Origin: Bacteroidota bacterium
GTDB taxonomy: Bacteria; Bacteroidota; Bacteroidia; Bacteroidales; GCA-2748055
Direction of reading: 5' to 3'
NCBI GenBank assembly: GCA_024244665.1
Contig: JAAEOI010000510.1
Location: forward strand, 1 to 27,513
Length of the DNA stretch: 27,513 nucleotides
Both the position numbers and the translations under genes were made by a program. Position 1 is the stretch's first letter; each line of letters begins with the position of its first letter. The notes below the pieces were generated by a model. The model worked only from the letters and a program-made list of their open reading frames with translations. It did not search any database and had not been told where the DNA came from. Below are positions 7,101-25,300 of the stretch, in pieces.

Positions 7101-7235
7101 GACGAAGAAAGACCAGAACCTGCACGCATCACATTCACCACCTGGAAACACTGGGCTAAGGATGACAACTTATTGCCCTCCGGTCTTATGGGACCGGTCA
7201 CCCTGAGATGTTCAAAACTAAACCCTGCCTTATGA
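4191..7235 (+). CDS. GH106-type alpha-L-rhamnosidase, secreted
   Basis: A 1014-residue protein. The start is TTG at 4191: an in-frame TGA lies at 4179-4181, no ATG gives a signal sequence, and TTG gives M-I-R-K followed by a hydrophobic stretch to about residue 21. The family pattern is clear: P-P-P-D-A-R-P-H-T-F-W-I-W-M-N-G-N-V-T-R-E-G-I-T near residues 38-61, then V-G-I-G-G-V-L-L-F and a C-A-G-W-A-T-T-G-G-P-W stretch, as in GH106 enzymes that cleave alpha-linked L-rhamnose. Candidate catalytic carboxylates are E310 (in L-D-S-Y-E) and E437 (in A-G-A-E-A-F-T), by analogy with the paired glutamates of characterised GH106. The C-terminal part (about 840-960) is a beta-sandwich with D-L-G-Q-V and V-T-N-L-W-V-N-R-L-I-G-D. 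Length is normal for the family. It opens the enzyme block and overlaps the next gene by ATGA, indicating translational coupling. No convincing promoter is seen upstream. Confidence 0.88.
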   Translation: MIRKTIVILVGLALLLVITGAKEKEQQLSKLESGFLNPPPDARPHTFWIWMNGNVTREGITADLEAMARVGIGGVLLFNVAGSHGTDIPAGPVDYLSDEWLNLVKYTAGEADRLGIEMGLHNCAGWATTGGPWIKPEDGMQQLVSAEISLWGNRHVVQKLPHPEVFEGYYRDIAVYAIPRNMDRGYRVHQWEPKTGQRGGRAGRQPDLSPVPEGSAIALESIIEISRYVNEEGILEWDAPPGSWTILRLGYTPKGNTNQPAAESGRGLEIDKLRRETLDLHWREGIQPVLDHLGPLVGNSFHIIHLDSYEAGLHHWTPRMRQEFKKLRGYDPTPYLLALTGRLIEDPATTERFLWDFRRTISDLFTENYYGYYADLCHENGLHFLNEPYTSCFEGLQVAAKVDFPTAEFWADGGYSFSLRLAASLAHIHGRRYAGAEAFTGAPHLARWENHPGSLKEVGDWAWTQGINRLILHSYPHQPWTDVAPGMTMGQYGCHFDRNNTWWEPGRAWVQYLHRSQYLLQEGENVADVLCYAGDAAPIGGVNRPDIKDSGYDYDACGTDILAELKVEQGDVVLPSGKRYRLLVLQDTEFMRPHFAQKIKELVLEGASVLGPKPKYTPSLEGFPASEKEVMAIGEEVWGSCDGLKVQSNRYGMGQVFSGISPTEALKIMQLAPQVIIPDESPEIAWIQRTTGDADVYFLSNQSGRVIHTLAGFRSRGKKPEFWDAVNGTIRPAQGWTLEGEHTKVPLNLMPGESVFVVFRHRGKPGRDPYVSVDNPSVEEKDSLWFAGIEAGKGVQVRTWENGKHILQRASGKAKEINIHGLPAPLELEGPWRVQFQEGRGAPEEVALDDLVSWHKHPDPGIQYFSGTAKYSLQFEVPESYIKEDQEIWLDLGQVEVIAELRLNGKETGILWHKPFRVEVSDDIRSGSNNIEIQVTNLWVNRLIGDEQYPDDCEWGEGKYLSHWPKWFMDDEERPEPARITFTTWKHWAKDDNLLPSGLMGPVTLRCSKLNPAL

Positions 7236-10200
7236 AAAACCGAATCACAAGCTGCGTCATCTCAGCCTTGATTTTATGGGCCTCTTTTCCGGTACATGCA
7301 CAACAGGAATACTACCAGACCAGCCTTCCAGGTGCATTCACATCTATTCCCGCGGGTGAAACCAGGCCGGGGGGGTGGATCAAAGCCCAGCTGGTGCGCG
7401 ATCTTGAGACTGGATTTACCGGGCACCTTGATTCTCTGACCCATTTTGCCCGCAGCGACATTTTCGGGAAGAGCAGGATCACAGGAATCAGACCCGGTGA
7501 GGATGGAATTCCGGAGCATATCCCAAAATCGTGGTGGCCGGGAGAGACTATACCGGTCTGGCTTGATGGATACCTGCGGGCAGCTTTCCTTACCGGCCAT
7601 CCCGCTGCGAAAGCGAAGATGCATGCCTTTATGAAACACTTGCTGGACTACCAGGAGGAGGATGGCTACATCGGGATCTATCTCCCGGAAACCCGGTATA
7701 TGCATACGACGGAGAATGCCGAGCTCTGGTCCCAGAGCCGCATATTCCGGGTCATGCTGGCCTATTATGAATTTACCGGCGACGGGCGGGTATTGACGGC
7801 GGTGAGGAGAGCTGTGGACCTTACCATGGATCACTATGGACCCGAAAGGAGCTATTTTTCCGTTGACAATGCACTGGGGGGGGTATCTCATGGTCTGATG
7901 TTCACCGATATCCTGGAGTGGTTATACCAGCTCACAGGTGAGGACAAGTACATTACATTTGGCAAATTCCTTTACCATGACTATACCAATTTCGATGTAG
8001 ACAGGCTCAACGATGCCCGGCTCGATTACCTGCTCGATCCCGGAAGAGAGATCGTGGGACATACCCCTCATATTGCAGAGCATCTCCGGGTGCCTGCCTG
8101 GTTGTTCCATGTAACCGGAACTCAGAAATACCGCCAGGCCTATGAGACGGGATATGCCAAACTGGAGCAATACATGGTTCCCAGCGGGGCTGTGCACAGC
8201 GGACACAGGGAAGACGTGGAAGGCACTCCTCCGACCCCGGATATGGCTTATGAATATTGCGGGATCACTGAACTATTTGACACCCAGAAATTCCTGCTTG
8301 AGAAAACCGGGGAGACCCGTTACGCGGATTCGGGAGAAAAACTGGTCCTGAATGCGGGACAGGGAGCCAGGCTGCCCGACGGAACATGCGTCAACTATTT
8401 TTCAAGGGACAACCGGTACCGGGCCACCTCCGAAGGAAGCGGCGGAAGGTTTAAATTCTCCCCCACACATGAAGAGATCGCCGTGTGCTGCAATCCCAAT
8501 GCGTCAAAACTGATGCCTTACTATGTGGATGGAATGTGGATGAAGAGATCCGGTGACTCCCAGGGGCTGGTGGCCATGTTTTACGGACCCTCACTACTGG
8601 AAACAAAAATCACCGGCGCCAGGGTGAGAATCAGGCAGGAGACCCATTTCCCCTTTTCAGATACTGTTCGATTCCTGGTGGAGCCAGAGAGACAAATCCC
8701 CTTTGCAATATGGTTGAGGATCCCTGATTGGTGCGATGAAATGAGAATTGAGGTGGAGGGCGCAGAGATATCCGAAAGGGATGGATTCAAGATCATCCAC
8801 AAAAACTGGACAGATGGAGACTCCTTCCGGGTGACTTTTGATGCAGGCATACAAACCGTTGAGGCAGTGAACGGGGAAATCGCATTTCAAAGAGGACCCC
8901 TGCTCTATTCCCTGGACCTTCCACATGAGCAAATGAAAATTAAAGATTATGCCCTGAAAGGTTTTGCCGACTATGAATTCACTCCCACTGATGATGATCT
9001 TTGGAATCTGCACCTGGATCCGGCTCAGTTGAAGAATGGATCTCCCTTTTTACATGAATACACTGGCACTTCAAACAGCCTCTATCCATGGGACAGGACA
9101 CCCTCTCGCCTCTACGGGCGACTCTTTGATCAGCAGGGTGACAGCAAAGAGGTTCGCCTGGTCCCCATGGGTACGACCATCCTGAGACGGCTGACTTTTC
9201 CTGTAGAATCACCCTCCTCTACGCCTGGAGCGATGGAGTATCCGGGAACACCACCGGGGAAGGTGCATGTATCTCTTACTGAATCACACATATCTATTGA
9301 AAATGCTGCAATTTCCGGAGAATGGGAACTTGCTGCAGGAAAAATTACATCCCTTAGCCTTGAGAACAGGGCTACCCGGCAGTCACTAACCATAGAGGGC
9401 GGACATATGCCCCGGGTGCTACTTCATAACGGACGTACAATTGATCTTTCTTCCTTAAACCCGGTGAACGCATTGAGCGTTGAAGGCCATGAGGTCCTTG
9501 CCACATTCATGGATGACACATCTGGCATGGAAATACGGTGGACGGTCTCACTGGCAGACGGGGCAAATGCCTTTATTCAATCACTGCAGCTCAAGGCATC
9601 AAAGGATATAGAAGTCGAAGAGCTTGTTTTTCTGGAGACGCCTCTCGACCATGCTCAGCAGGTGGGGAATGTGGATGGATCGGTGGTGGTATGTGGTGAC
9701 CTGTTCCTGGCCATCGAACATCCGCTGGCAAAGAACGAGGTGAGCGATCACGGATATGTCAGTTGCATGTTACCCCGCGGCAATGTGTTGAAGGCTGGCC
9801 AGTCCTTGACACACACCAGTGTTTTCGGCGCCGTGCCGCCGGGCCAGCTGCGCAGGGGGTTCCTTTACTACCTGGAAAAGAGAAGGGCTCATTCCTACCG
9901 GCCCTTCCTGCACTATAACAATTGGTACAATGTGTTCCTGGCCCGGCCTGTTGAACGGACCAATGAAGGGGAGTGCCTGGAGGCTATTGAGTGGTTCGGT
10001 GAGAAGCTGGTCCGTGAGCGGGGAGTAAAGATGGATGCCTTTGTGTGGGACGACGGCTGGGATGATTTTAACTCATTGTGGGATTTCCACAATGGATTTC
10101 CTGACGGATTCAAAAACCTGGATGCTGCCGCCAGCAAGTACGGTGTTGCACAGGGGGTCTGGATGTCGCCTAACGGAGGGTATGCAACTGCAAAAGAACA

Positions 10201-11137
10201 GCGAATTGCCTATGGCAAGCCTTTGGGGTACGAGACCAACCATCTCGGTTTCGCCATGGGTGGGGCCAATTATTCAAAGGCTTTCCGTAAGGTTTGCCTG
10301 AATATGATGCGGGAACATGGTGTCACTTTCTTCAAATTCGATGGCATGGGTGAAGGGGGAGAAACAACAGGTACTGAGGCGGAACTATCGGATGATATTG
10401 ATGCGATTCTTGAACTCTCAAGAGATCTTTATCGTGAAAACCCAGAGGTTTACATTAGTGCTACCTCAGGTACCTGGCCCAGTCCCTTCTGGCTAAAATA
10501 TGCATGTTCAATCTGGCGGCAGGGAGGTGACAATGGCTTGTATGGTAAGGGAGATACCCGCCAGCAGTGGATCACCTACAGGGATAAATTTTGTTACGAA
10601 AGGATCGTGCAGCTGGGTCCCCTCTATCCGATCAGTTCTCTCATGCTCGGGGGGATTATTATAGGAGACCGGAGAAGTCCTGCAAGAATGGTTCGCAATG
10701 AGAAATCGGTGGCCGATGAGATCTGGACCTTTTTCGGATCCGGGACCAACCTGCAGGAACTCTATATCAATCCTGAACTGCTGAGCGATACCATGTGGGA
10801 CGAGCTCGCTGATGCGGCCAGGTGGTCCAGGGAAAACAGCGATGTACTGATCGATACCCATTGGATCGGTGGTGATCCGGGCAAGGAGGAAGTCTACGGC
10901 TGGGCTTCCTGGCAACCGGGTAAGGGTATTGTTGTACTGAGAAATCCATCTGACTCACCTGGAGAATTTACCTGTACTTTTAAAGATGCACTTGAGCTCC
11001 CCGATGGGGCCATTTTCAGCATATCGCCGACGATAATCTATCCGCGGAGCAGCCGGTCGGCAGCCTGGCCTTCCAGTGCCGGGGAATCCTTCAGCCTGAA
11101 CCTTCAGCCATTTGAAGTAATAGTCATTGAATTATGA
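7232..11137 (+). CDS. Bifunctional GH127 (DUF1680) - GH36-like glycosidase fusion
   Basis: The chosen ATG at 7232 overlaps the previous stop (ATGA) and begins a good signal peptide (M-K-N-R..., cleavage before QQEYY); an ATG eight codons earlier would bury it. The product is 1301 residues with two modules. Residues about 25-660 are GH127-like: the metal/nucleophile site is intact, with E341-x-C343 (Y-E-Y-C) and C419-C420 (V-C-C-N-P-N), close in numbering to Glu338, Cys340, Cys417 and Cys418 of the beta-L-arabinofuranosidase HypBA1; E327 or E330 in H-R-E-D-V-E-G is a candidate acid. Residues about 676-1301 resemble GH36/clan GH-D alpha-galactosidases: V-W-D-D-G-W, then F-F-K-F-D1037-G as nucleophile and G-G-D1100-N-G followed by W-I-T-Y-R-D as likely acid/base. 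GH127 relatives also cleave aceric acid, so the arabinose assignment is tentative. Confidence 0.8.
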   Translation: MKNRITSCVISALILWASFPVHAQQEYYQTSLPGAFTSIPAGETRPGGWIKAQLVRDLETGFTGHLDSLTHFARSDIFGKSRITGIRPGEDGIPEHIPKSWWPGETIPVWLDGYLRAAFLTGHPAAKAKMHAFMKHLLDYQEEDGYIGIYLPETRYMHTTENAELWSQSRIFRVMLAYYEFTGDGRVLTAVRRAVDLTMDHYGPERSYFSVDNALGGVSHGLMFTDILEWLYQLTGEDKYITFGKFLYHDYTNFDVDRLNDARLDYLLDPGREIVGHTPHIAEHLRVPAWLFHVTGTQKYRQAYETGYAKLEQYMVPSGAVHSGHREDVEGTPPTPDMAYEYCGITELFDTQKFLLEKTGETRYADSGEKLVLNAGQGARLPDGTCVNYFSRDNRYRATSEGSGGRFKFSPTHEEIAVCCNPNASKLMPYYVDGMWMKRSGDSQGLVAMFYGPSLLETKITGARVRIRQETHFPFSDTVRFLVEPERQIPFAIWLRIPDWCDEMRIEVEGAEISERDGFKIIHKNWTDGDSFRVTFDAGIQTVEAVNGEIAFQRGPLLYSLDLPHEQMKIKDYALKGFADYEFTPTDDDLWNLHLDPAQLKNGSPFLHEYTGTSNSLYPWDRTPSRLYGRLFDQQGDSKEVRLVPMGTTILRRLTFPVESPSSTPGAMEYPGTPPGKVHVSLTESHISIENAAISGEWELAAGKITSLSLENRATRQSLTIEGGHMPRVLLHNGRTIDLSSLNPVNALSVEGHEVLATFMDDTSGMEIRWTVSLADGANAFIQSLQLKASKDIEVEELVFLETPLDHAQQVGNVDGSVVVCGDLFLAIEHPLAKNEVSDHGYVSCMLPRGNVLKAGQSLTHTSVFGAVPPGQLRRGFLYYLEKRRAHSYRPFLHYNNWYNVFLARPVERTNEGECLEAIEWFGEKLVRERGVKMDAFVWDDGWDDFNSLWDFHNGFPDGFKNLDAAASKYGVAQGVWMSPNGGYATAKEQRIAYGKPLGYETNHLGFAMGGANYSKAFRKVCLNMMREHGVTFFKFDGMGEGGETTGTEAELSDDIDAILELSRDLYRENPEVYISATSGTWPSPFWLKYACSIWRQGGDNGLYGKGDTRQQWITYRDKFCYERIVQLGPLYPISSLMLGGIIIGDRRSPARMVRNEKSVADEIWTFFGSGTNLQELYINPELLSDTMWDELADAARWSRENSDVLIDTHWIGGDPGKEEVYGWASWQPGKGIVVLRNPSDSPGEFTCTFKDALELPDGAIFSISPTIIYPRSSRSAAWPSSAGESFSLNLQPFEVIVIEL

Positions 11138-14100
11138 AAAATGCTATCCTGTTAATACCAATGCTGGTCCTGGGATTTGTGGCTAATTGCCAGACCATTG
11201 AAATAGACGAGGTCTGGGCGGGTCATCCGGTTGGATTCTGCCTTCTGACAGAGGGGAGCCGGCAATATATTGCTTACTATAATGCCGACAGGCATATGGT
11301 CGTTGGCCAACGAAATCTGCAAGAGGATAATTTTCACCTGCATGTGATGACTCCCACATCCCGGGAAACTCATGGAGGGACCAGCACGGTCCTGGGCTGG
11401 GACAGTCACAATTATGTAACCCTGGGCATCGACAGGGATGGGTACATACATCTGTCGGGCAATATGCATGTACATCCCTTAAGCTATTTCCGTAGTACCG
11501 AACCCCATGATATTAGCACCCTCCAACAGGTAATGAACATGACTGGTAGCCTGGAGAACAGGGTTACCTATCCCAAGTTTATGACTGACCGCAAGGGCAA
11601 GCTGATCTTCCATTACCGTGACGGGGGCAGTGGTAACGGAAATGAGATCTACAATATATATTCGGCCGAAAGTAAGAGTTGGGACCGATTGCTCGATGCC
11701 CCCCTTACAGACGGGGAGGGAAAAATGAATGCTTACCAGTCGCAACCCACACTTATGGCTGATGGCTGGTACCATGTGTGGTGGGTCTGGCGCGATACTC
11801 CCGATTGCGCCACCAACCATGATCTCTCATATATGAAAAGTCCTGATCTGAAAAACTGGTACAATGCTTTCGGGGAGCCTGTGAAGTTGCCAGCCACCAT
11901 CCGGAACAGATCACTGATCGTGGATCCGGTACCTCCGGGTGGGGGGATCATTAATCTTTCGGCCCGTCTTTGTCTTGATGAAAACAACAAAGCTGTATTC
12001 ATCTATCACAAATATGGCCCCGGGGGAAACCTCCAGCTTTTTGTTGCCAGGCAGCAGGGGAATAGCTGGGTATCCGGGCAAATAACTGACTGGGATTACC
12101 GTTGGGAATTCTCAGGTGGAGGAACCATAGTGGTCGATGTACGATTAAAGGATTTCCTGCGCAGGGATGACGGATACTACGAATTCAGCTACTGGCATGT
12201 GAAACAGGGGAACAATACCCTTTTGCTGGATGGAGATTTCCATATTGTTGGAAAAGTTCCAAACGCCGAAACTTTCAGTGAAACAGTGAAGGTGGAAGGG
12301 GATTTCCCTGGTCTTGAGGTTCGCATTGCAGGTGACATTGGTAAAGCAGATGAAAAAGATGCCGCCTATTTTCTCAAATGGGAATCCCTGTCCAGTAACC
12401 GTGATCGTCCCAGGCCGGAACCCTGGCCCGGACCCGCTAAACTGTATTTATATAAAACAACAGATCAATCTGAAACACCATCAAAGATTGATTTTAACCG
12501 TGACTGGACTTTCGTAAAAAGTTCTGCAGAATGGCCGGTGGATTTTGATTCTGAGGGCAAGGTAATGGAAGCGCTTAACTTACCCCACACCTGGAATGCT
12601 TCTGATATGGGGCCCGGACTACTTGATCCCTACATTGGCAGAGCATGGTACGAAAAGCAATTTAAAGCACCGGTTCTAACGGCCGGACAGCGCTTGCTTA
12701 TCAGGTTCGAGGGCATAAATAATTGCAGCAAAGTATGGATCAACGGTGGTTATGCCGGGGGCAGGGATGGTGGTTTTCTTGCTAACATGATAGATGTCAC
12801 TGACTTTTTGATCAATGACAAAAATACAATTCTTGTGCGTGTGGATAACAGCTATGATATGAAGGCCGGCATGCCTCAATGGATCGGCTGGAATCGTTAC
12901 GGGGGAATCACACAGCCGGTCTGGATGCATATCCGCGAACACGCTTATATAAGCAATGCCGGTATAGAGATCCGTACGCCTGAGTTTAGCGGGGATTCTG
13001 CTTTAACAATTGTGAAAACCCATATTGAGGAGACAAAGAAAAGCGGGGCAGAACTTGAAGTCAGACATACTCTGTATTCTCCGGAAGGAGAACGAATTTC
13101 AAGCACCACAAAGTCCGTTCGAACCGGTTTTTTTACCAATCACGTTGAAGTTGAATTACCTGCTGTCATCAAACCAAATCTATGGTCTGATTGCAATCCT
13201 GCGTTGTACAAACTGAAAACAGAAATTCTTGAAGATGAAGTAATAATCGATACTCAGGAAAACTCCATCGGATACAGATATTTCAAATTTGATTCAAGCA
13301 AAGGATTCACATTGAATGGTAAACCCACAAAACTAAGAGGGGTTAATATGCACATGTTCTTTCCGGGACTGGGAAATGCGTTGCCGGAACGTTTTTACAG
13401 AGAGGATATAAAACTATTGAAGCAGATGGGATGTAATTACATGCGATCTTCCCATTATCCACGTACAAAGGAGGTACTCGATGCCTGTGATGAACTTGGT
13501 ATCATGGTGCTGGAGGAGCAACCATACTGGCATGGCTCGGTTCGTGCGACCGGGGGAGAGGAGGCCATCAATCATGCAGTCAGGCTGCTTAAAGATATGG
13601 TCCGGCAACAGGGTAATCACCCCTCGATAATTGCCTGGAATACAGTGAATGAAGTCATGATAGCTCCTCCCTATAAACCTGGATACGGGTATTTTTCAAT
13701 GGATGATCCAGAGAGGGAAACCTGGAAATTGAAGCCGGAAGAGTATCCTTACCTGCGTCGACATCTTCAAAGAATGGTGGAAGCTTTCAAAGAGCTTGAT
13801 CCGGACAGGCCTGTATCAATGGTTGTTGGTGGGCAATGGGAGAAAAATGACCGGGCCGGCCTCACTTCTGTTGCTGATATTGTGGCTTACAATGGAGGAG
13901 CCATGTATCTTGATGATGAATTTCTCGGACGGGAAACCGGTAAATACTATGAATTCAAGCCGGATTATTACCGGGAATTGTTCCCGGAGCGTATTCATAT
14001 CATGTCTGAAGGTATTTTGAACCATTTCACCTATGCCCGGGGAGAGTGGGAAAAGGAGGAGGAAGGATGGCGTTGGAACGCAAAATACTGGAACATTATT

Positions 14101-14841
14101 AATGAACGTCCCTGGTTTTGTGGTGGGTCCATGTGGTGCTTCACAGATTATTCCTACCTCTCGCCCATGGTGGTCGATCGGTTTACGGATAATTCAGGGA
14201 TCAGTCATCATGACCTGCATGGGGCTGTTGACCGTTTCCGTCTGCCCAAAGAGGTTTTTTATTTTTATGAAGCAATGTGGTCAGATCATCCGGTACTGCA
14301 CATTCTCGGTCACTGGAATCATAAAAAAGGCTCATCACAGGATGTTGTGATATTTACGAATTGCCGGGATGTGGAATTAACTCTCAATGGAAGGTCTTTG
14401 GGAAAAGGAACACCCTCCTCTGATGAATTCCCTGCCATAGAAAATCCTCCCCTGATCTGGAAAAATGTCCGCTATAAAAAAGGAAAACTGGAAGCCAGAG
14501 GGATGTATGACGATCAACATCTAACGGACACCCGGACAAGCTCAGGAGATCCTGCCGGAATAGTACTATCGGCTTCAAATGATTTAATGGCAGACGGCCG
14601 GGATATCAGTTTTATTGAGATGATGATCTGCGACATAGATGGAAACCGCTGTTATACGGTCACCGACAGCATCTCCCTGACTGTCAGCGGGCCAGCCCGT
14701 CTTGCAGGAGATCGCCTGGTTCATGTTTCTGGCGGTTTGGCACGTGTGGCCATCCGTTCAGGCGGTGAAAGCAGGAAAATCACAATTATCGCGGAGGGTG
14801 ATAAGCTGAAAAGGGGAGAACTTTTTCTGAGGGCGGAATAA
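11134..14841 (+). CDS. Bifunctional BNR_4 propeller (possible lyase) - GH2 glycosidase fusion
   Basis: A 1235-residue protein coupled to the preceding gene by an ATGA overlap. It has a signal peptide ending near V-A-N-C-Q-T; the Cys might be lipidated but Asn before it is atypical. Residues about 22-440 form a BNR_4-type seven-bladed propeller with H-G-G-T-S-T, W-D-S-H92-N-Y and H-L-S-G-N-M-H112. Propellers of this kind include polysaccharide lyases acting on rhamnose-glucuronate linkages (ulvan lyases PL24/PL25 and PL42, as I recall), and the His pair is where catalytic or metal ligands sit in them. Residues about 450-1235 are a full GH2 enzyme: sugar-binding domain (L-P-H-T-W-N), immunoglobulin-like domain, TIM barrel with acid/base E840 (W-N-T-V-N-E) and nucleophile E959 (H-I-M-S-E-G), then C-terminal beta-sandwich domains. 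Beta-galactosidase, beta-glucuronidase or alpha-L-arabinopyranosidase activity are all possible. Confidence 0.82.
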   Translation: MKNAILLIPMLVLGFVANCQTIEIDEVWAGHPVGFCLLTEGSRQYIAYYNADRHMVVGQRNLQEDNFHLHVMTPTSRETHGGTSTVLGWDSHNYVTLGIDRDGYIHLSGNMHVHPLSYFRSTEPHDISTLQQVMNMTGSLENRVTYPKFMTDRKGKLIFHYRDGGSGNGNEIYNIYSAESKSWDRLLDAPLTDGEGKMNAYQSQPTLMADGWYHVWWVWRDTPDCATNHDLSYMKSPDLKNWYNAFGEPVKLPATIRNRSLIVDPVPPGGGIINLSARLCLDENNKAVFIYHKYGPGGNLQLFVARQQGNSWVSGQITDWDYRWEFSGGGTIVVDVRLKDFLRRDDGYYEFSYWHVKQGNNTLLLDGDFHIVGKVPNAETFSETVKVEGDFPGLEVRIAGDIGKADEKDAAYFLKWESLSSNRDRPRPEPWPGPAKLYLYKTTDQSETPSKIDFNRDWTFVKSSAEWPVDFDSEGKVMEALNLPHTWNASDMGPGLLDPYIGRAWYEKQFKAPVLTAGQRLLIRFEGINNCSKVWINGGYAGGRDGGFLANMIDVTDFLINDKNTILVRVDNSYDMKAGMPQWIGWNRYGGITQPVWMHIREHAYISNAGIEIRTPEFSGDSALTIVKTHIEETKKSGAELEVRHTLYSPEGERISSTTKSVRTGFFTNHVEVELPAVIKPNLWSDCNPALYKLKTEILEDEVIIDTQENSIGYRYFKFDSSKGFTLNGKPTKLRGVNMHMFFPGLGNALPERFYREDIKLLKQMGCNYMRSSHYPRTKEVLDACDELGIMVLEEQPYWHGSVRATGGEEAINHAVRLLKDMVRQQGNHPSIIAWNTVNEVMIAPPYKPGYGYFSMDDPERETWKLKPEEYPYLRRHLQRMVEAFKELDPDRPVSMVVGGQWEKNDRAGLTSVADIVAYNGGAMYLDDEFLGRETGKYYEFKPDYYRELFPERIHIMSEGILNHFTYARGEWEKEEEGWRWNAKYWNIINERPWFCGGSMWCFTDYSYLSPMVVDRFTDNSGISHHDLHGAVDRFRLPKEVFYFYEAMWSDHPVLHILGHWNHKKGSSQDVVIFTNCRDVELTLNGRSLGKGTPSSDEFPAIENPPLIWKNVRYKKGKLEARGMYDDQHLTDTRTSSGDPAGIVLSASNDLMADGRDISFIEMMICDIDGNRCYTVTDSISLTVSGPARLAGDRLVHVSGGLARVAIRSGGESRKITIIAEGDKLKRGELFLRAE

Positions 14842-14850
14842 GAACAAAAG

Positions 14851-17496
14851 ATGAATACAATCATAGGAATATTATTGATTCACGCATTGATTTGCGCTGA
14901 TGATGTCCGAATGGGGGGGTCAACAACTGAAGAATTTTACGCATATCACACGAAATTAAGCCACACATCCACCGATTATTTTGGTAAGTATGCGGACCTG
15001 GTTGTTGTGCTGGGAGAGGGACGAAGACTGGAATTTACCCGGCAGACCAATTATACTCCCAGGTGGGTGACACCCTCGGGCATATTCATGATGGATGAAT
15101 TTTTTCCCGAACGTGATCCGGACTTCAATTTTGATTACAGCTATGTCAGGTTAATTGAGGAAGGTCCGGAGAAAATTGTGGTTCACAGGCGCTATGTCCC
15201 TGATATTGATTTATTGGAAGAAGCAAACAACCGGCTCAATCCTATGTTTATTGGGGGTTTTAGCAATGTGGTGCATGAGATATATACGATCTATCCCACG
15301 GGTAAAGTTGAGAGGAGTGTGAAGGATGCAAGGGGTACAAAATATTATACCTGGATAAAGGAGGATTTTGCCCATGAGCAAATACTGGAATTAAAAGATA
15401 AGGGCATCACTTATGGTCCTGTTAACTGGGGCAACAATGTGCGCGAATTACCAGGTCCGGTGGAGAAGAATCCTGTGAAAACCAGGAATGATCTGCCGGA
15501 GCCCTGCATCTCGTTCACCTTTAATGAAGGAGGCCGGGATTTCATGAACAAAGAATCGGAAGTATTATTCGGACGGAATGCCAAAAGAACCGCCAGGGGG
15601 CTGTGGCAGATTCCGGATCCGGTAGTTGATGGCATAAACAGGGAGATAGTTGGAGTAAGCGGACACGGAACTCTGTACAAGAAGGGTGTTTCCGGCACTG
15701 CCCTTGCCTTTGACGGTTATTATACAGGCATTCATTATGATACCGAACACGTGGAAACAAGGGGTGGCTTTTCTGTTGAAGCATGGCTGGCACCGGATAC
15801 CTATCCTTTCAACAAAGCTCCCCTGGTCCATCAATCCAGGCGCTTCGGCCAGGAGGGGTTTTATCTGGGCCTTGATCCTTATGGTAAGGTATTTATCACG
15901 GTAAACGGATCAACAGCCATCGTAAATGAAGCCATACCACTTTACCACTGGACACATATTGCAGCTACCATCGATGATCAAAAAGCCACGCTATATGTAA
16001 ATGCGGAAAAAGTGGCAGAAACAGTTTTCTCAGGAGAAGTGGATTTGAAAGGCTTACCCCTCTCAATAGGCATGAATACAGAAATGGAGTATTGTACCGA
16101 TCGTGTGCGCGGCTTTGAAAGGAATCTGCCTTTTATTTACGGTATAGAGGGGCTTCTGGATGAAATAAATGTGTACGGCAAGGTGCTGTCAGAAAATGAA
16201 CTGGATCATTGCTTCACCACCTTCCTCCCGCAAGACACCCGATCTGATCTCCGGAAAGCGGTTTTGCCGGGTGAGGACGGAGAGGCAGAGCATTTCGGAG
16301 CGACATGCAGGACCCTTGGCTATGATGAATTATGGGACAGGATGTGGCGGCTGACTGATAATTCTGACATTGTGGTTAAGTTCGATAATAGTCCGGCCAG
16401 TGTGGTTTACTGGCATGGAGCCAATTACGGTGCCGGATGGGTAACGGATAATAATCGCTGGATGGCCGATCAGAGTTCAGAGATCGGTGGTAAATACGGA
16501 TGTTCGGAGCATATGGCAGATAAACAGTGCAGACACAGCTATGCCAGGGTAATTGAAAACAATGAAGCCCGGGTTGTGATTCACTGGCGGCACCCCTGTG
16601 TGGATATCAGTTATCGTTTGAATCACAGGCGAAACTGGGCCGATGAGTATCATACCATTTATCCCGACGGGACAGCTGTAAGGAAGGTGGTTTTTAATAA
16701 TACTTTTTCTCCCGGCTTTCAGGATATCCAGTTTTTCTCCAATCCCGGAGAAACTGCACTGGATGTGATGCATCTGAATGCCCTGACCGTTGCCAACACC
16801 AGAGGTGAGATACAGGAACTGAACTGGCGGAAACCAGATCAGGTTCCGGAGCAGCCTCTGGAAGATGCTACCATTGAATGGTTGAACTCCCGGTCGGAGT
16901 ACAAGGTCTTTGCTGTGTTCCCGGGACCAGGAATGAATCCCTGGGGTGGTCAGGAACAATCGGCGTATACAGATGATCCTTTTGCGGGTCCCTGGAACCA
17001 TTGGCCGGTGGGGCTGGCACCTTCGGACGGACGCTATGCAGTGGCACATGACCGGGTGACTCATTTCGCCATTGCGGCACATGATAATTTACCAAAAATG
17101 GGCAGCGTAATGCTTTATGGTTTCACCAATGAAAAAATAGACGCGGTCATCCCGGTGGCCCGTGCATGGAAAACCCCGCCACAATTAGGGAGGGTCCGTG
17201 GGGTCGAATACCTGGGATTCAATACAGATGAAAAGGCCTTCGAATTTCAAGCTGATGGAACAGATGAAGTAAGTTTCACGATAGAAGCTGATCCGGAATC
17301 ACCCCTGTCGAATCCGTGTTTTATATTTTACAACAACAGCTGCGTCGATCCTGTGGTGAAGCTGAATGGTAAAATGCTCAATGAAGGCCAGGATGTGCGA
17401 ACAGCAAAGGCCTATGATACAAATGGCAGTCGAAAAACCATTATATGGATGGACTATGAATCTGAAATTGAAACGGATGTGACTGTCATATTTTAA
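14851..17496 (+). CDS. Secreted protein with a LamG domain between two homologous modules, family not recognised
   Basis: An 881-residue protein starting 9 bases after the GH2 fusion, with a short signal peptide (cleavage near residue 16, after L-I-C-A). Residues about 220-455 are a LamG/concanavalin A-like jelly-roll (A-L-A-F-D-G-x-Y, F-S-V-E-A-W, W-T-H-I-A-A-T, G-L-L-D-E-I-N-V-Y). The flanks resemble each other: Y-V-R-L-I-E...V-V-H-R-R in the N-half matches Y-A-R-V-I-E...V-I-H-W-R in the C-half; W72-V-T matches W530-V-T; and H-E-I-Y-T-I-Y-P-T-G (TIYP at 146) matches D-E-Y-H-T-I-Y-P-D-G (TIYP at 602). Spacing W to T is 74 and 72 residues, so the halves are a duplication offset by about 457 residues. 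I know no CAZy family with this layout. Conserved Arg, His, Tyr and Asp in both halves would suit a uronide-binding or lyase site, which is inference. By context it serves the same glycan pathway. Confidence 0.7.
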   Translation: MNTIIGILLIHALICADDVRMGGSTTEEFYAYHTKLSHTSTDYFGKYADLVVVLGEGRRLEFTRQTNYTPRWVTPSGIFMMDEFFPERDPDFNFDYSYVRLIEEGPEKIVVHRRYVPDIDLLEEANNRLNPMFIGGFSNVVHEIYTIYPTGKVERSVKDARGTKYYTWIKEDFAHEQILELKDKGITYGPVNWGNNVRELPGPVEKNPVKTRNDLPEPCISFTFNEGGRDFMNKESEVLFGRNAKRTARGLWQIPDPVVDGINREIVGVSGHGTLYKKGVSGTALAFDGYYTGIHYDTEHVETRGGFSVEAWLAPDTYPFNKAPLVHQSRRFGQEGFYLGLDPYGKVFITVNGSTAIVNEAIPLYHWTHIAATIDDQKATLYVNAEKVAETVFSGEVDLKGLPLSIGMNTEMEYCTDRVRGFERNLPFIYGIEGLLDEINVYGKVLSENELDHCFTTFLPQDTRSDLRKAVLPGEDGEAEHFGATCRTLGYDELWDRMWRLTDNSDIVVKFDNSPASVVYWHGANYGAGWVTDNNRWMADQSSEIGGKYGCSEHMADKQCRHSYARVIENNEARVVIHWRHPCVDISYRLNHRRNWADEYHTIYPDGTAVRKVVFNNTFSPGFQDIQFFSNPGETALDVMHLNALTVANTRGEIQELNWRKPDQVPEQPLEDATIEWLNSRSEYKVFAVFPGPGMNPWGGQEQSAYTDDPFAGPWNHWPVGLAPSDGRYAVAHDRVTHFAIAAHDNLPKMGSVMLYGFTNEKIDAVIPVARAWKTPPQLGRVRGVEYLGFNTDEKAFEFQADGTDEVSFTIEADPESPLSNPCFIFYNNSCVDPVVKLNGKMLNEGQDVRTAKAYDTNGSRKTIIWMDYESEIETDVTVIF

Positions 17497-17533: not shown

Positions 17534-18841
17534 ATGAACCCTCATTTCTTTATAAAAATACGAGCACTGATCCTACTGCTGGGTTTGCTTCTATTCTCCT
17601 GTCAGCCAGATAGTAAAACTTCCCCAACAGGCTCTGAATATCTTTTTGCCCTGTTTGAGGACCTTCCGGAGATAAAGGAGCTGCCCGATCCCTACGTGAT
17701 GAACGATGGCAAAAGGGTCAAAAACAAAGAGGACTGGTTGGAGCACCGGGAGTATTTGAAAAAGCTGCTGGCGCACTACCAGTATGGGGAAATGCCTTCA
17801 CGGCCCGACAATGTTGAGGTGAAGGTCGATTCGGTCCGCGAGGCTTATGAGGGGAAAGCCATCATTGAAAATATGCATTTCTCATGGAGCAGGAACAGTG
17901 TATCTCACAGCTTTCGGGTCGGACTGCTAAGGCCAAAAAGGGGAGGGAAGTTCCCGGTCATCATTAAGAACGACCTGTTCAGGTTCTCCTACAATGATAT
18001 CTTAAATGCAGACGCCAGAGCACGTTTTAAAGAGTCTCGAAGAATTGAGGATCAGGACTATCCGGCGTTTGAAGAGGCCATTTCCCGCGGGTATGCGGTT
18101 TGCAAATTTATAAGAACGGATGTGGCCTCCGATGACCGGAACAGCAGTCTGTCGGGTCCCCTTTTCAGGATGTACCCCGAATACGATTGGGCGGCGATTG
18201 CTGCCTGGGCCTGGGCCTACCAGCTGATCATCGACTATTTTGAAACCCTGGATTATATTGATATGGGAAAAATTGCGGCAACGGGCCATTCCCGGGGAGG
18301 GAAAACGGCCCTTTGCGCCGGTATATATGAGGATCGTATCACCCTTACAGCCCCTAATTCATCAGGGAGCGGGGGCACAGCCACGTACCGCTTTTTCCAG
18401 GAAGGACAAAGAAAGCAACTGCTAGGATTTCCCCATAAGCAGCAATTCCCGCACTGGTGGGCGCACAGGTATTTTAAATTTGCTGATAATGAGGACCGCA
18501 TGCCTTTTGATTCCCATTTCAATAAGATGCTCATTGCTCCCCGGGCTTTGTTCAACACGCATGCACGTCACGATTACTGGGCCAATCCCTATGGAACGCA
18601 GCTGACTTTTGAGGCTGCTCAATCCATATTCGACCTTTATGGCGTGCCCGGGAATAACGGGATACACTGGCGCGATGGTGAACATAACCAGGCCCATATT
18701 GATTGGCTTGCCCTGCTGGATTTTTGCGATAAGATCTTTTTTGACAGTGACGAAATACTGGAATTCAAGGCCCCGCCCGATTCCATCTATCCGGAGACAA
18801 GACCTGATGATTTTAACGACTGGGAACTGCCGGTTTTTTAA
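17534..18841 (+). CDS. CE15/CE19-like carbohydrate esterase lipoprotein
   Basis: A 435-residue alpha/beta hydrolase. The N-terminus has a lipoprotein signal with the cysteine at residue 23 (L-L-L-F-S-C). The nucleophile elbow is G-H-S253-R-G-G-K-T-A-L, followed by D-R-I-T-L-T-A-P-N-S-S-G-S-G-G, and the likely catalytic His is H384 in D-G-E-H-N-Q-A-H-I-D-W. The G-x-S-R-x-G-K-x-A and N-x-S-G-x-G-G combination is typical of bacterial CE15 glucuronoyl esterases and the related CE19 pectin methylesterases (founder BT1017 of the RG-II locus, as I recall). It probably removes an ester, methyl or aryl/alkyl, from a uronic acid and so exposes the chain to the neighbouring glycosidases. A 37-base gap without a terminator separates it from the LamG gene. 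I cannot choose between CE15 and CE19 from motifs alone. Confidence 0.78.
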   Translation: MNPHFFIKIRALILLLGLLLFSCQPDSKTSPTGSEYLFALFEDLPEIKELPDPYVMNDGKRVKNKEDWLEHREYLKKLLAHYQYGEMPSRPDNVEVKVDSVREAYEGKAIIENMHFSWSRNSVSHSFRVGLLRPKRGGKFPVIIKNDLFRFSYNDILNADARARFKESRRIEDQDYPAFEEAISRGYAVCKFIRTDVASDDRNSSLSGPLFRMYPEYDWAAIAAWAWAYQLIIDYFETLDYIDMGKIAATGHSRGGKTALCAGIYEDRITLTAPNSSGSGGTATYRFFQEGQRKQLLGFPHKQQFPHWWAHRYFKFADNEDRMPFDSHFNKMLIAPRALFNTHARHDYWANPYGTQLTFEAAQSIFDLYGVPGNNGIHWRDGEHNQAHIDWLALLDFCDKIFFDSDEILEFKAPPDSIYPETRPDDFNDWELPVF

Positions 18842-18851
18842 TAGAAAGCAT

Positions 18852-21242
18852 ATGAGAAGCACAAGGATAGTACTACTTATTGCCCTGGTGGCAGTATTTT
18901 CCTGCAACAGGCAGGAAGCAATCAGCGAGAAACTATGGTATACATCCCCGGCGGAGGATTGGTTCTCGGCTCTGCCGCTGGGCAACGGCAGACTGGGCGC
19001 CATGGTCTTCGGATCACTGGAAGAGGAGCATATACAGATGAACGAGGAAAGTCTCTGGGCGGGTTGTCCCGAAGATCCCTATCCCGAAGATGTGAAAGAG
19101 CATTACCAGAAGTTCCGGGAGCTGAACTTAAGGGGAGAATATAGCAGGGCACTTGAATATGCCATGGATAACCTTGCCATCTCGCCAACTTCAATCCGCT
19201 CGTATACACCGCTGGGTGATCTCTTCATTAAGCTGAATCACACAGATACCGGTAGTTACAGGAGAGAACTGGACCTGGAGACCGGAATCCATACGGTGGA
19301 ATATGAAATCGACGGGAAAAAATTCCGGCGTGAGGCGTTTATCTCTGACAAATACAACGCCATGTTTTTCCATTTTTCTTCTCCTGACGGGGAAAAAATG
19401 GAGGCGGCCATCAGGTATGAAAGAGAGAAGGACATTGAGCAATATGTGGATGATAAGAATGTCCTCTGTATCGACGGCCAGCTCTTCGATGATCCGGAAG
19501 GATATGATGACAACGCGGGAGGATCTGGTGAGGGCGGGTATCACATGAAATTTGCCTCCCGGCTTGCTGTGAACATGAATGATGGTGAGCTAATTGCAAA
19601 GAATAATCAGTTGCTGCTGGAAGGCACCGTGGAGTTCACTGTAATTGTCAGCGCAGCAACGGATTACAATCCCGGCTTAATGAACTTTGACCGGAGTATA
19701 GATGCCCGGCAAAATGCATCTGCCATATTGGAGGCGGCCCTGGCAGAGCCCTACGAAAAGATCAAAAGGGATCATATCAGCGCCCATTCTGAAGTATATA
19801 ATCGCGTGGATTTTTGCATCACTGAGCTTGAGCTGGATGATATTCCAACCAATGAGCGGATAGAAAGGTTGAAAGAGAATGAAGGAGGGACGGATAATTA
19901 TCTTACACAGGTATTTTTTCAATATGGCCGCTACCTGCTCATGGGCAGTTCCGGTGGAAGGGCCACCCTGCCGGCTAACCTGCAGGGGATCTGGAATAAG
20001 GATATGTGGGCCGCCTGGGAAGCTGATTACCACCTGAACATAAACCTGCAGATGAACTACTGGCCGGCCGATGTGTGCAATTTATCGGATGCCTTTGAGC
20101 CATTGTCCAATTATGTATACAGGCTTGCCGGGAAGGGGAATGCAACAGCAAATAAGTTTATTGATTCGGACGGATGGATGGCACATCATGCAACAAACCC
20201 CTTTGGAAGGACTACCCCCTCTGGATCCAACCCGTCTTCTCAGGTGAATAACGGTTACTGTTTTCCACTGGCCGGTGCCTGGATGAGCCTTTCACTATGG
20301 AGGCACTACCAGTTCATCCAGGACAAACACTACCTTGAAGAAACAGTCTACCCTGTAATTCAGGGAGCTTCACAGTTCATCCTCGACTTCCTGGTGGAGA
20401 ATGAAAAAGGTGAACTGGTAACCGCACCTTCCTATTCACCCGAAAATTCATATTTCGATCCTGAAACAGGCCAATCCATCAGGAACACCGTAGCGGCTAC
20501 TGTTGATATTCAAATCATTAATGAGATATTCCAGGCATGTCTGGATGCTGAAAAATTACTGGGGAAGAATGAATTAACAGAATCCATAAATGATGCGCTT
20601 GCCAGGCTTCCTGAAATAAAGATCGGGGCCGACGGGACAATCCAGGAGTGGTATGAAGATTATGAGGAGGTAAATCCGGCACACAGGCATGTCTCCCATC
20701 TATTCGGATTTCATCCGGCCGGACAGATTACTCCTTCCACCCCTGATCTTTACCAGGCGGCACTCAGGACCCTGGAGAAAAGGCTTTCATCGGGCGGGGG
20801 ACAGACCGGCTGGAGCCGGGCATGGGTTATAAATTTCTATGCACGCTTCTTCCAGGGGAATGAATGCAATGGGCATATTAATGCTTTAATCACACAGCTG
20901 GCCGCTCCCAACCTGTTTGACCTGCACCCGCCACATATTTTTCAGATCGACGGTAACCTGGGAGCTACGGCCGGTATTGCGGAGATGCTGATTCAATCGC
21001 ATGAGGGAAACACCATCAGATTGCTTCCGGCATTGCCCGATGCCTGGAAGGAAGGTCATGTAAATGGATTGAAGGCAAGAGGTGATTATATCGTGGATAT
21101 GGCCTGGAAAGACGGAAAGCTGCAAAGTGCAAGAATCACATCGAATAAAGGCGGTACTCCTGATTTGGTTTACGAGGATAAAACCTTTACGCCCGGCTTA
21201 AAGCCCGGTGAAGAGTTTATAATTGATATTAACAAACTATGA
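18852..21242 (+). CDS. GH95 alpha-L-fucosidase (or alpha-L-galactosidase) lipoprotein
   Basis: The ATG at 18852, ten bases after the esterase stop, gives a 796-residue protein with a lipoprotein signal (V-A-V-F-S-C, cysteine at residue 18). The frame is open for 81 codons upstream, inside the esterase, but without a secretion signal. The GH95 pattern is complete: W-x-x-A-L-P-L-G-N-G-R-L-G-A-M near the N-terminus, M-N-E-E-S-L-W-A-G, P-A-N-L-Q-G-I-W-N, then H394-L-N396-I-N398-L-Q-M-N-Y-W, S-P-E531-N and F-Q-I-D700-G-N-L-G. These match His419, Asn421, Asn423, Glu566 and Asp766 of the Bifidobacterium 1,2-alpha-L-fucosidase AfcA, which inverts configuration using Glu as acid and Asn-activated water. 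Keeping His at the 419 position, where an L-galactose-preferring relative has Thr, favours L-fucose. Its stop overlaps the next ATG. Confidence 0.9.
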   Translation: MRSTRIVLLIALVAVFSCNRQEAISEKLWYTSPAEDWFSALPLGNGRLGAMVFGSLEEEHIQMNEESLWAGCPEDPYPEDVKEHYQKFRELNLRGEYSRALEYAMDNLAISPTSIRSYTPLGDLFIKLNHTDTGSYRRELDLETGIHTVEYEIDGKKFRREAFISDKYNAMFFHFSSPDGEKMEAAIRYEREKDIEQYVDDKNVLCIDGQLFDDPEGYDDNAGGSGEGGYHMKFASRLAVNMNDGELIAKNNQLLLEGTVEFTVIVSAATDYNPGLMNFDRSIDARQNASAILEAALAEPYEKIKRDHISAHSEVYNRVDFCITELELDDIPTNERIERLKENEGGTDNYLTQVFFQYGRYLLMGSSGGRATLPANLQGIWNKDMWAAWEADYHLNINLQMNYWPADVCNLSDAFEPLSNYVYRLAGKGNATANKFIDSDGWMAHHATNPFGRTTPSGSNPSSQVNNGYCFPLAGAWMSLSLWRHYQFIQDKHYLEETVYPVIQGASQFILDFLVENEKGELVTAPSYSPENSYFDPETGQSIRNTVAATVDIQIINEIFQACLDAEKLLGKNELTESINDALARLPEIKIGADGTIQEWYEDYEEVNPAHRHVSHLFGFHPAGQITPSTPDLYQAALRTLEKRLSSGGGQTGWSRAWVINFYARFFQGNECNGHINALITQLAAPNLFDLHPPHIFQIDGNLGATAGIAEMLIQSHEGNTIRLLPALPDAWKEGHVNGLKARGDYIVDMAWKDGKLQSARITSNKGGTPDLVYEDKTFTPGLKPGEEFIIDINKL

Positions 21243-22348
21243 AGAGATTAAATGTTTCATTCTTTCCTTTTTGCCTGCTTGTTATATGCATAGCCACCGG
21301 CGGCTGCCGGCAGGGAACAATAAGTGAAAATCCGGCGCCAGTGGATGAAAAAACCCTGGCGGAGTGGTCAGCACCCTACCGGAACTGGCACTACTATCCA
21401 GACCTGGTGATTCCTGATAAACCGGATATTTCAGGAATAGAAGGTGTGAAAATGACAGATGTGCCCACCGTGTTTCAGGTAAAGGGATCGGATAGCTGGC
21501 TGATGACCTATATCGGCTTCGACGGTGCCGGCTACCAGTCTTTTGTGGCCGAAAGCGAGGACCTTGTCCGGTGGGATAATCACCGGCTTGCCATGGGCTA
21601 CGGACCCGAGGGTGAATTCGATCATGGAGGGGTGGTGCTGGGAGCTTTTCTTTATAAAGATTATGATATCAAAGCCCCCCGCATACTGAAGAAAAAGAGG
21701 GGTAACTACTATTCCCTGTACGGATCCTATCCCCGCCAGGGAGGCTATGAATTGCGTCCCGGGTATGAGGGAATCGCCAGGAGCAGCGATGGGATTTCAT
21801 GGGAGAGGGCAAAGGACGAACCCATTCTTTCGGTACATCAGGAGGATTGCGGAAGCTGGGAAAAAGACTGTATTTATCAGCCCTGGCTGCTCGAATACAA
21901 GGGGAGATACTATAATTTTTATAATGCGGCCGACGGTCATATAGAACAAAGCGGCCTGGCCCTTTCTCATAACCTGCTTGACTGGAGCAGGTATGAACAC
22001 AATCCTGTAATCCCCAATGGTCCGGAAGGCAGTTATAATGAGAAGTTCTCCTCCGATCCGAAGGTTTTTCGGGACGGGGATCACTGGGTAAGTTTCTTCT
22101 TCGGGGTGGGCCGTAAAGGTGCCCATATCATGGTGGCTTTTTCAAGGGATTTGTATCACTGGACTGTGGATCCTGAACCCATTTATAAGGCGGGAGGTAA
22201 TCCTTCGGGCATTGACAGCAGGTATGCTCACAAGATCTCACTTGTATGGAATTCTGCAAACGAAACCTACTACATGTACTATTGTGCAGTGGATAAAGAG
22301 GGCACAAGAGGTATCGGATTGATAACAAGTAAACCCATAGATGAATAA
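21239..22348 (+). CDS. GH43/GH130-like five-bladed propeller lipoprotein, putative glycosidase
   Basis: A 369-residue protein coupled to the GH95 gene by ATGA. The N-terminus is a hydrophobic signal ending A-T-G-G-C23, a likely though imperfect lipobox. The rest has the blade-like repeats of clan GH-F and GH130-type enzymes: D74-V-P-T-V-F-Q-V, D143-I-K-A-P-R-I followed by G-N-Y-Y-S-L-Y-G-S, S-S-D-G-I-S-W-E-R, Y-Q-P-W-L-L-E-Y-K-G-R-Y-Y-N-F-Y, and D-P-K-V-F-R-D-G-D-H-W-V. D74 and D143 are candidates for the base and pKa-modulating aspartates, with a Glu or Asp from the central segment as acid. The D-P-K-V start of a late blade also recalls GH130. Exact family and sugar (arabinofuranose, galactose or xylose) cannot be decided from the sequence. 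Length is normal for a single-domain enzyme. Confidence 0.65.
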   Translation: MKRLNVSFFPFCLLVICIATGGCRQGTISENPAPVDEKTLAEWSAPYRNWHYYPDLVIPDKPDISGIEGVKMTDVPTVFQVKGSDSWLMTYIGFDGAGYQSFVAESEDLVRWDNHRLAMGYGPEGEFDHGGVVLGAFLYKDYDIKAPRILKKKRGNYYSLYGSYPRQGGYELRPGYEGIARSSDGISWERAKDEPILSVHQEDCGSWEKDCIYQPWLLEYKGRYYNFYNAADGHIEQSGLALSHNLLDWSRYEHNPVIPNGPEGSYNEKFSSDPKVFRDGDHWVSFFFGVGRKGAHIMVAFSRDLYHWTVDPEPIYKAGGNPSGIDSRYAHKISLVWNSANETYYMYYCAVDKEGTRGIGLITSKPIDE

Positions 22349-25300
22349 CAAATTATTTTCAACCAATTATACTAAGGCCATGATGCTATTGAGCAATTCA
22401 AACAGATTTATGCAAGGTCGTTTTCCAATTCTGAGACTTATGATAACGGGATTGTTGTTGTGTAATCTAATCCAGCCTGTATCAGGACAGGAAAAATATG
22501 AAAACATGTATAGTGGTCAGCGCCCATACGAACTCGATTGGGCAGGCAGGTATGAAGATGACCATATGCCCTTCATTGATTTTGAAAAGGAAGAGGCATG
22601 GACCGTTGAATCAACAGATGGCTCTGCTTCAATACATCGCTCAAACGAAGAGATTATCTGGGACGATTACACCTATAAAGTTGCCTACAGGTCAAACAGT
22701 CTGGATGCAAGTTTTGTAGTACGTCCACCTAAAGCTCTCAAAATCCCCGAAGCATTTACAGCTTTGAATGTGTGGGTGTTTGGCAATTATTGGATATGGA
22801 ATGATCACGCACGGAAAACACCCATCTCGAAACTCACTATCCTTTTGGAGACAAATGGCGGTGAATCTTTTGAAATTCCTTTTCAAAGAGATTTAGATTT
22901 TGGAAGATGGTATCTTATGCATATAAGACTGACAGCCAAACAACAAAAAGCATTTGCAGATGGAGGCGTATTTAGGGGATTCAAATTCACCAATTGTGAT
23001 CCAGATAAAGATAAAGCCCTCTTTTTTGACAATCTCTCTTTTTTTGCAGAGGACCTGACAACTCCACTTGAATACGACATTTTACCCCGTCCTGGAGTCG
23101 ATTTGGCAAAGGGTCAGGACCTGGGTGTTCATACTGGTGAAGAACGTCTCCCTTTCCCAACCAGAGAGGAGACCATTTTACCCGAAAATGTGAGTAAAAA
23201 CTTTGCGACAAATGTATATCGCGATGGAGACACATATATTCTTCGCTACAGTGGCGATGATGGCGAACTGGAATACCGGTACAAGCCCGGGAAGGGAGAT
23301 TTAAGCGATATTACAGCCCAGTGGATGGACGGGGAATCAGAGGCTTTGAGACCCATGGATAATGGTGGAATTAAATTAAAGCTGGACAATGAAGTTGACA
23401 GTATAATTACAGAAAGGTTTGGAAATTTCAGACCCAACAGAGAAACTGTTAAAGACCCCGATAACTTTGAATTGATCGACTGTAAAATCTCAGGAAAAAC
23501 TCTTGTGGCTAAGTGGAAAGTTAGCTCTGACGATCAAAGTACAGAAGTAGAATATACATTTCGCATATGGCAAAAATCCCTTGTATGCGATGTGAAAAGT
23601 TTAGGGGGAGAAGTCGGGAAAATATCACTTGGTAAAGTAAGTGATGCGGTAAATCCCGAATTATTAGGTGTGCCTTATTTGATAGGACCCAGGGTCCTGA
23701 AAACGGGCACCGAGAATAATCCCTTGTTCATGAGCTCATTGGTTGATTATTATCGTACAGCTTCTTCAGGATTATATTTTAGCGGAGACGAGGAGGATGG
23801 AGTTTATTGTAACGGAGGTGTTTATTATGCACCCAAGACAAATGGAATAAGGAACGATTGTTACGAAAGGTTCTTCCTGACACTCTCCCCCCGTTTCGAG
23901 GAGACTCTTCCTGCCATTCCCAATCCAAAGGCGATTACCCGTGAAGATGCGGCCAATCACATGGTGTGTTATTATGCCGTATTTGACAGGGACGAAGATT
24001 ACCGGTACTGGAAAAATGCTGCCCGGTACGGGATCAACAAGGTGGTGATGCTGGACTGGGAAGTTTGCTGGAGGGATGACGCGGAAAGTTTCACGTTCCG
24101 TTCCAGTGCAGCACCCGGTAAAGGAGGTAACGAGGATCTGGCGGAATATGTTTCTAAGGTCCAGGACCTGGGCCTGCGTTATGCGCTCTATAATAATTTT
24201 GTGGACTATGCGCCCGTAAACGCTTTATGGGACGAAGATATGGTGATTCGTTTACCCAATGGAGGATGGCAACAGGCCTGGTTTCGTACTTACTCGGCAA
24301 AGCCAGCAAAAGCAGTTAAATATTCACGTTTGATAAGCAAAGATGCCAAGCATAAATTTAATCCAACAGCGGGAGGCCCGGATGTGCATACAGCTGTCAG
24401 TCCTTACTCACGGGTGGACTTTGATGCTCGTATGCCGGGTGCCGGAACCATGATGACCCAGTTTTATTCTTACGGGCAACTTCTGCTTGAGCAACAGCAG
24501 ATATGGGAAGGACCCACATACAGTGAATGCCACAGCGGGTATTACTACAGTGGCCTTACCACTGGTAGTGGAGCATGCGACGGAGGCAAGTATGATAACA
24601 AATACTGGCTGGTGGATTTCTATTTACGAAAAATGCAGCCCATCAGTGCCCACTGGAGCCTTGGAATGGGAGAACGAAATGATGAAGGTGCCGATCGCTA
24701 TTTTGCCAGAACCATAGCTTATGGAATGCCGGGAGGGTACCTGGGGGGATGGCGAACGCCTTTTGACCTGTACTCAGTGAGAAGCTATTTTATGATTCAG
24801 TCATTGCAATCATATTATGCCAATGCATTGATCAAAAGTATCAGGTATGCAAATGATAAGGGAGAATTGCTGGATGTCTCGGCTGCTATCGCTGAAGGAG
24901 CCCACGCCAGGTCGCAATTAAAGCTGGAATATGATAACGGACTGGAAGTCTGGGTGAATGGAAGCAAAGAAGAGGCCTGGGAAACCCCCCATGCAGAGTT
25001 GCCACCATCGGGCTATTATGCTAAAATGCCCAAAGGCGAGCTGGAAGTATTCAGTGCTCTGAAGAATGGGAAGCGAGCCGACTTTGTTACCTCTCCTGCT
25101 TATGATTTTTTGGATGGACGCGGCCAGTGGATTGAAACTCCCCGGGGAGGTAGCGACGGACAGCTGATCGTACTGAAGAAGAACGATGGCTCTCTTGAAG
25201 TTATTCCCTATGGAGCAGAGAAGTTTGCAGTTGCTCTGGCAAAGAAAGCAGCGAGTATGGTGGCACTTGATGAAGATTACCAGGTGATTGGTGAAGCGCA

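Follow-up and report, generated by a model that had tools for sequence, protein, structure and literature searches.

Enzymes of families PL8, PL26 and GH38 have helical or alpha/beta catalytic domains, the chemistry of PL8 and PL26 requires a helical toroid, and the sandwich domains of other enzymes are frequently non-catalytic. The GH174 endo-1,3-fucanases, whose catalytic acids are D119, E120 and E218 in Fun174A, appear to do otherwise, cleaving a glycosidic bond on a beta-supersandwich without a helical or TIM-barrel domain. Here we describe a gene from a 27,513-nucleotide stretch of a Bacteroidota genome (contig JAAEOI010000510.1, assembly GCA_024244665.1; hereafter the window), whose 881-residue product comprises an N module, a LamG domain and a C module (Table 1). 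Our preferred, if tentative, reading is that the protein is a secreted glycan-degrading hydrolase, in which the C module would act on a fucose- or rhamnose-rich glycan through residues E544 and E553, with the LamG domain providing attachment and the N module being a dead copy.

The first-pass annotation, made from the letters of the window, had described two homologous halves of an unrecognised family, split by a LamG domain, with shared motifs at near-identical spacing and an offset of about 457 residues. The residue positions bear out the motifs: WVT lies at residues 72-74 and 530-532 (offset 458) and TIYPxG at 146-151 and 602-607 (offset 456), a spacing of 74 residues in N and 72 in C. The quoted offset thus holds at both ends of the block and fails in its middle, where YxRxIE (98-103 and 564-569) and VxHxR (110-114 and 576-580) are displaced by 466 because the C half carries extra loop residues. 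The duplication is far beyond chance. By BLASTP, the N part resembles the C part at E 2e-8 (30/100 identical), and the profile-profile comparison that the annotation had suggested was significant, aligning N residues 24-158 with C residues 477-614 over 124 columns at 98.7% probability and E 4.2e-16 (hhalign; 51 homologues aligned together with the window protein). Control comparisons of N or C with the LamG segment gave probabilities of only 1.8 and 1.1%.

By these comparisons the halves are unequal, homology being detected over the two aligned stretches only. The C module runs on to residue 881, and for about 265 of its residues no counterpart was detected in the window protein's N module, whose matched part is equivalent to the opening third of C. 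Two relatives (L036:11585-14869 and L022:4826-6625) have, after the N copy, a stretch that matches the C-terminal beta-domain, which suggests duplication of an entire module with loss of its middle. In a tree built on 144 columns from 19 N-module and 32 C-module sequences, a single branch with 100/100 support splits N from C, consistent with one old duplication rather than repeated ones, provided that the root lies between N and C; duplicate loci L020 and L040 were excluded from the tree and the counts.

The LamG domain between the copies, as predicted, is the sole named domain of the protein (Laminin_G_3/LamG, 69.2 bits against a cut-off of 27.6). No NCBIfam model passed its cut-off for the 881-residue protein, no Pfam or NCBIfam family did so for the N or C module, and Pfam returned zero families over cut-off in six open reading frames (ORFs) with a C module only (L016:17866, L019:10307, L018:12209, L023:5564, L022:3357 and L024:5348), so that the family is indeed an unrecognised one. 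Among PDB sequences, the full protein matched only 4qvs up to E 10 (E 0.001, over the LamG part), and a C-module profile matched only 7dnm within the same limit, at a chance level (E 0.73), with no GH174 chain among the matches. The first 20 residues are hydrophobic, as judged by eye, and the protein is probably secreted.

AlphaFold2 models of the full protein (115 sequences) and of residues 456-881 alone (82 sequences) reached mean predicted local distance difference test (pLDDT) scores of 91.4 and 93.4, respectively. Both are mostly beta with few short helices; the N module has eleven strands, and the C module forms a many-stranded sandwich followed by a C-terminal beta-domain. The C module was folded separately because the whole-model fold search was dominated by the LamG jelly-roll: matches to AbnA, clostridial toxin binding domains and a trans-sialidase reflect this shared jelly-roll and carry no functional meaning, and domain 4 of AbnA (5hon, 5hp6) is 18-19% identical to the window LamG. 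With the C-module model, Foldseek found no match at E <= 0.001 in PDB, where the rows were mostly of immunoglobulin type, or in BFVD, and informative structural rows came only from a VIA second look. There the supersandwich matched GH174 (8jd7, 9k1g), PL8, PL26, the C-terminal sandwich of GH38 and others at tied Z. Neither model contains a helical toroid or an alpha/beta barrel catalytic domain of the kind found in PL8, PL26 or GH38. The likeness to GH174 lies at the level of the fold: identity is 7-8% with no sequence match (PDB members only) and, unlike GH174, the window protein carries a C-terminal beta-domain, a LamG domain and a duplicate module.

Conservation singles out a hairpin within the C module. 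Residues E544, E553 and D557 are each invariant in 271/271 C-module rows, and R574, R580 and Y604 in all 270 aligned rows, followed by D585 (269/270) and H578 (262/270); the 271 rows come from 240 fetched proteins and the ORFs of fetched loci and are not all independent. Any two of the 29 C modules in one alignment (A6) are 22% to 70% identical. The C-module model pairs strands 544-547 and 550-553 in a tight hairpin and, given its two-residue turn in the secondary-structure string, E544 and E553 would sit opposite each other on adjacent strands, their side chains pointing to the same face; in the full-length model the hairpin loop is uncertain (pLDDT 57-61).

Across 138 N-module rows, the position matching E544 holds glutamate in 6 and a different residue in 77, with 55 rows gapped; the corresponding counts for E553 are 42, 11 and 85, the gaps being partly an alignment effect since the length of the E544-E553 loop varies. 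In the hhalign register (115-sequence set), no residue lies opposite E544, and N residue 87 (G 53, E 33, D 17) lies opposite E553. Counterparts of D557 (137/137), E599 (138/138), R611 (138/138) and R580 (131/138) are retained, and that of R574 is K in 93 rows and R in 24. The N and C labels follow position in the protein, with a few partial rows (L005, L024, L039) labelled by hand and 11 pieces that fitted neither excluded. The N copy thus looks to have retained an apparent framework but mostly not the two-glutamate hairpin, and the invariant C residues, taken with the selective loss of E544 and E553 in N, have the appearance of an active site beside its inactive counterpart.

We speculate that the C module is the catalytic unit, in which E544 and E553, facing each other across one beta-hairpin, would serve as the acid/base pair with D557 adjacent, and R574, R580, D585 and Y604 would position the sugar, probably a 6-deoxy sugar of the fucose or rhamnose type and probably with an acidic group. 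The bond cleaved may be internal or terminal, and the mechanism retaining or inverting. The LamG domain would grip the glycan, and the N module may be kept as a catalytically dead duplicate for folding, domain packing or binding. The first-pass annotation had offered a lyase, an esterase or a glycosidase; we find the glycosidase the best supported of the three, on account of the GH174-like fold (tied with others), fucosidase neighbours and one fusion to a GH2-type domain. Nothing points to an esterase: no named match is an esterase, and the predicted structure is largely beta rather than that of an alpha/beta hydrolase, although no esterase motif search was made.

The family is large but uncommon across genomes. 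Of 7,996 candidates scored in a full-length search, 314 passed E <= 1e-3, and the best 120 of these are all N-LamG-C. Five stand-alone C modules used as queries gave at least 2,936 matches among 8,000 scored candidates; of the best 120, 85 are shorter than 600 residues with C only, 30 are longer with C only (26 exceed 760 residues) and five are LamG-C. These architectures were assigned with our own profiles, of which the LamG profile misses some domains present in precomputed Pfam annotation. Source names among the matches listed are 'hypothetical protein', LamG-type or 'Concanavalin A-like lectin/glucanases superfamily'. Carriers number 1/295 genomes in the class of G001 (full-length alignment, E <= 1e-40), 2/23 in its family, 15/298 in the class of G003 (C-module alignment, E <= 1e-30) and 3/199 in its phylum. 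Loci L001-L005 are recorded under Bacteroidales, Planctomycetota, Phycisphaerae and Phycisphaerales; copies occur in 28 places in G356, a 4.4 Mb genome (loci L035-L038), 14 in G003 and 8 in G005, with tandem arrays present. One N-LamG-C protein (P0095) is fused to a GH2 sugar-binding domain. At L001:9603-12020, an 805-residue protein has an N part of about 360 residues without family ahead of its C module. L024:3400-5325, adjoining a diverged module gene, joins a UvrD helicase N-terminal domain (9-449) to the module's C-terminal beta-domain (about 520-636), either an odd fusion or an assembly fault. We recognised no description of the family among the best-ranked open-licence papers; what is new is a family without a Pfam or NCBIfam model over cut-off, and the fold and the setting in clusters of carbohydrate-active enzymes (CAZymes) are familiar.

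Neighbouring genes were compared across 21 genomes picked for carrying the module, with 82 of 106 rows counted as module places once N-type copies and second fragments of a gene had been removed, and with 5 kb distances judged by eye from coordinates. Eight GH29 genes have a module within 5 kb (three in G003, three in G356, one each in G004 and G005) against 1.04 expected from 118 places (P ~1.3e-5, a rough value resting on uniform placement and approximate genome sizes; one G004 gene with two rows counts once among the eight and twice among the places). For GH95 the figures are three against 0.55 expected (71 places), and for GH2, taken as a control, 0 of 101 places against 0.56 expected, giving p 0.006 for GH29 against GH2 (Fisher). 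All GH29 pairs come from four genomes, assemblies are fragmented, CAZyme genes cluster anyway and GH2 is absent from the richest genome, G356. GH106 lies within 5 kb of a module at only 1/36 places (G541:C327), so that the window rhamnosidases are not a general partner. Two observations weigh against reading the surroundings of the module as glycan clusters: only four GH29, two sulfatases and one each of GH127, GH32 and DUF2961 turned up in the 42 neighbour proteins scanned, alongside numerous unrelated families (from the best 25 of 54), and locus L035 of G356 sits amid housekeeping genes (dnaG, rpoD, hemD-type) rather than in a glycan cluster.

The same locus, the many paralogues in G356, the LamG domain and the often non-catalytic role of sandwich domains elsewhere fit a cell-surface glycan-binding protein, in which every module binds sugar and a ligand or Ca2+ would occupy the site made by the invariant residues. 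We consider this somewhat unlikely, given that six polar residues show no exception in some 270 rows, with identities down to 22% in the 29-row set, and that the second copy has selectively lost the E544/E553 pair.

A polysaccharide lyase, with the supersandwich binding a uronate glycan, R574 and R580 neutralising the carboxylate and Y604 or H578 acting as base or acid to leave an unsaturated end, seems quite unlikely to us. It would suit the tied matches to PL8, PL26 and other lyases with the same sandwich, the BNR_4 domain and glucuronyl-esterase-like gene flanking the window gene, and the neighbours at L001 (symporter, Zn-dehydrogenase, PfkB kinase and aldo-keto reductase), which are compatible with uronate or deoxyhexonate catabolism. 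Against it, GH88/105 genes (E <= 1e-15) are missing in 15 of the 21 genomes, among them the two that carry 14 and 28 module places, and in the others not one of the 17 GH88/105 places is within 5 kb of a module; the mostly beta protein also has no toroid, and H578 is not universal. Two systems were considered for the uronate and rhamnose setting. The PL40 ulvan lyase Uly1040 differs, being reported as a two-domain enzyme with a His/Tyr and Mn2+ mechanism (PMC12915356); no PL40-like match arose in PDB sequence searches of the full protein and the C module, a set in which the presence of PL40 was not confirmed. For the ulvan dehydratase P29_PDnc, LamG goes unmentioned in the available passages of PMC8511951.

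The annotation's symmetric pseudo-dimer, with N and C sharing one active site, accords with the constraint on N at the D557, R580, E599 and R611 counterparts, but is improbable given that C modules occur without N, that N mostly lacks both glutamates and keeps only part of the rest, and that it has no detected counterpart of the module's last two thirds. An enzyme of the mutarotase or epimerase kind, or one acting on sugars by some other non-hydrolytic chemistry, with a sandwich of the galactose-mutarotase type, shares the general supersandwich fold and is very improbable, since the LamG architecture and polymer-degrading neighbours ill suit a monosaccharide mutarotase and no mutarotase chain appears among the best 50 structural rows, an absence that is not in itself an exclusion.

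Table 1. Features of the window gene, its protein and the surrounding genes, in window coordinates
Feature	Positions	Strand	Basis
881-residue protein gene, N module - LamG - C module	14851..17496	+	ORF call; domain, profile and model analysis
N module, duplicated stretch (residues 24-158), degenerate copy without the E544/E553 pair	14920..15324	+	profile-profile; conservation
LamG (PF13385), residues 291-450; fold nearest GH43 arabinanase AbnA domain 4	15721..16200	+	Pfam; fold search
C module (residues 456-881), predicted beta-supersandwich and C-terminal beta-domain, proposed catalytic unit	16216..17493	+	model; conservation
C-module stretch homologous to N module (residues 477-614)	16279..16692	+	profile-profile
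E544-D557 hairpin; invariant E544, E553, D557, proposed active-site acids	16480..16521	+	conservation; model
R574-Y604; invariant R574, R580, Y604, near-invariant D585 (269/270)	16570..16662	+	conservation
PQQ/beta-propeller protein, weak EF-hand matches, upstream of block	2040..3569	-	
GH106 alpha-L-rhamnosidase	4191..7235	+	Pfam
GH127-like N half, second half without family	7208..11137	+	Pfam, NCBIfam, PDB search
BNR_4 domain fused to GH2	11134..14841	+	Pfam/NCBIfam
Glucuronyl-esterase-like (PF22244)	17534..18841	+	Pfam
GH95, ORF called from TTG	18609..21242	+	ORF call, Pfam
GH32/GH130-type propeller	21239..22348	+	Pfam/NCBIfam
1010-residue protein, candidate enzyme	22341..25373	+	ORF in same block
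Second GH106 rhamnosidase, cut by window end	25381..27513	+	

Domain annotation of the neighbours upheld the earlier placement of the gene in a glycan-degrading block, which runs closely spaced on one strand from the first GH106 gene to the truncated one. The N half of the GH127-like protein has 4qjy as its nearest PDB chain and scores 71 bits against an aceric acid hydrolase model, below cut-off; its second half, several hundred residues without family, carries a DDGW motif and may resemble a GH27/GH36-type barrel. The BNR_4 domain reaches 197 bits against the BT3686 rhamnosidase model (cut-off 700), and the propeller 102 bits against NF049877 (beta-D-glucuronidase/beta-L-arabinofuranosidase; whole-protein cut-off 1800). 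The GH95 ORF overlaps the preceding gene, and so its real start is probably further downstream. The 1010-residue protein had no match in Pfam (E up to 5), NCBIfam (E up to 1) or PDB sequences (E up to 0.01).

Glycans rich in fucose and rhamnose are hard to degrade and important for storing carbon over the long term, and many of the enzymes acting on them are uncharacterised. PMC12786026 makes the point for fucoidan. More speculatively than for the window protein itself, the module may define a superfamily of at least 2,936 glycoside hydrolases built on a beta-supersandwich alone, with a glutamate pair across a hairpin, present in 14 and 28 places in two Phycisphaerae-type genomes, with one branch bearing an ancient dead duplicate and LamG; it could then form a new CAZy family or clan for such glycans. 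Thousands of unannotated proteins would share a sharply defined candidate active site, and the N copy would serve as an internal natural negative control, which makes the proposal directly testable. If true, it would add a case of a pseudo-enzyme domain retained beside its active twin.
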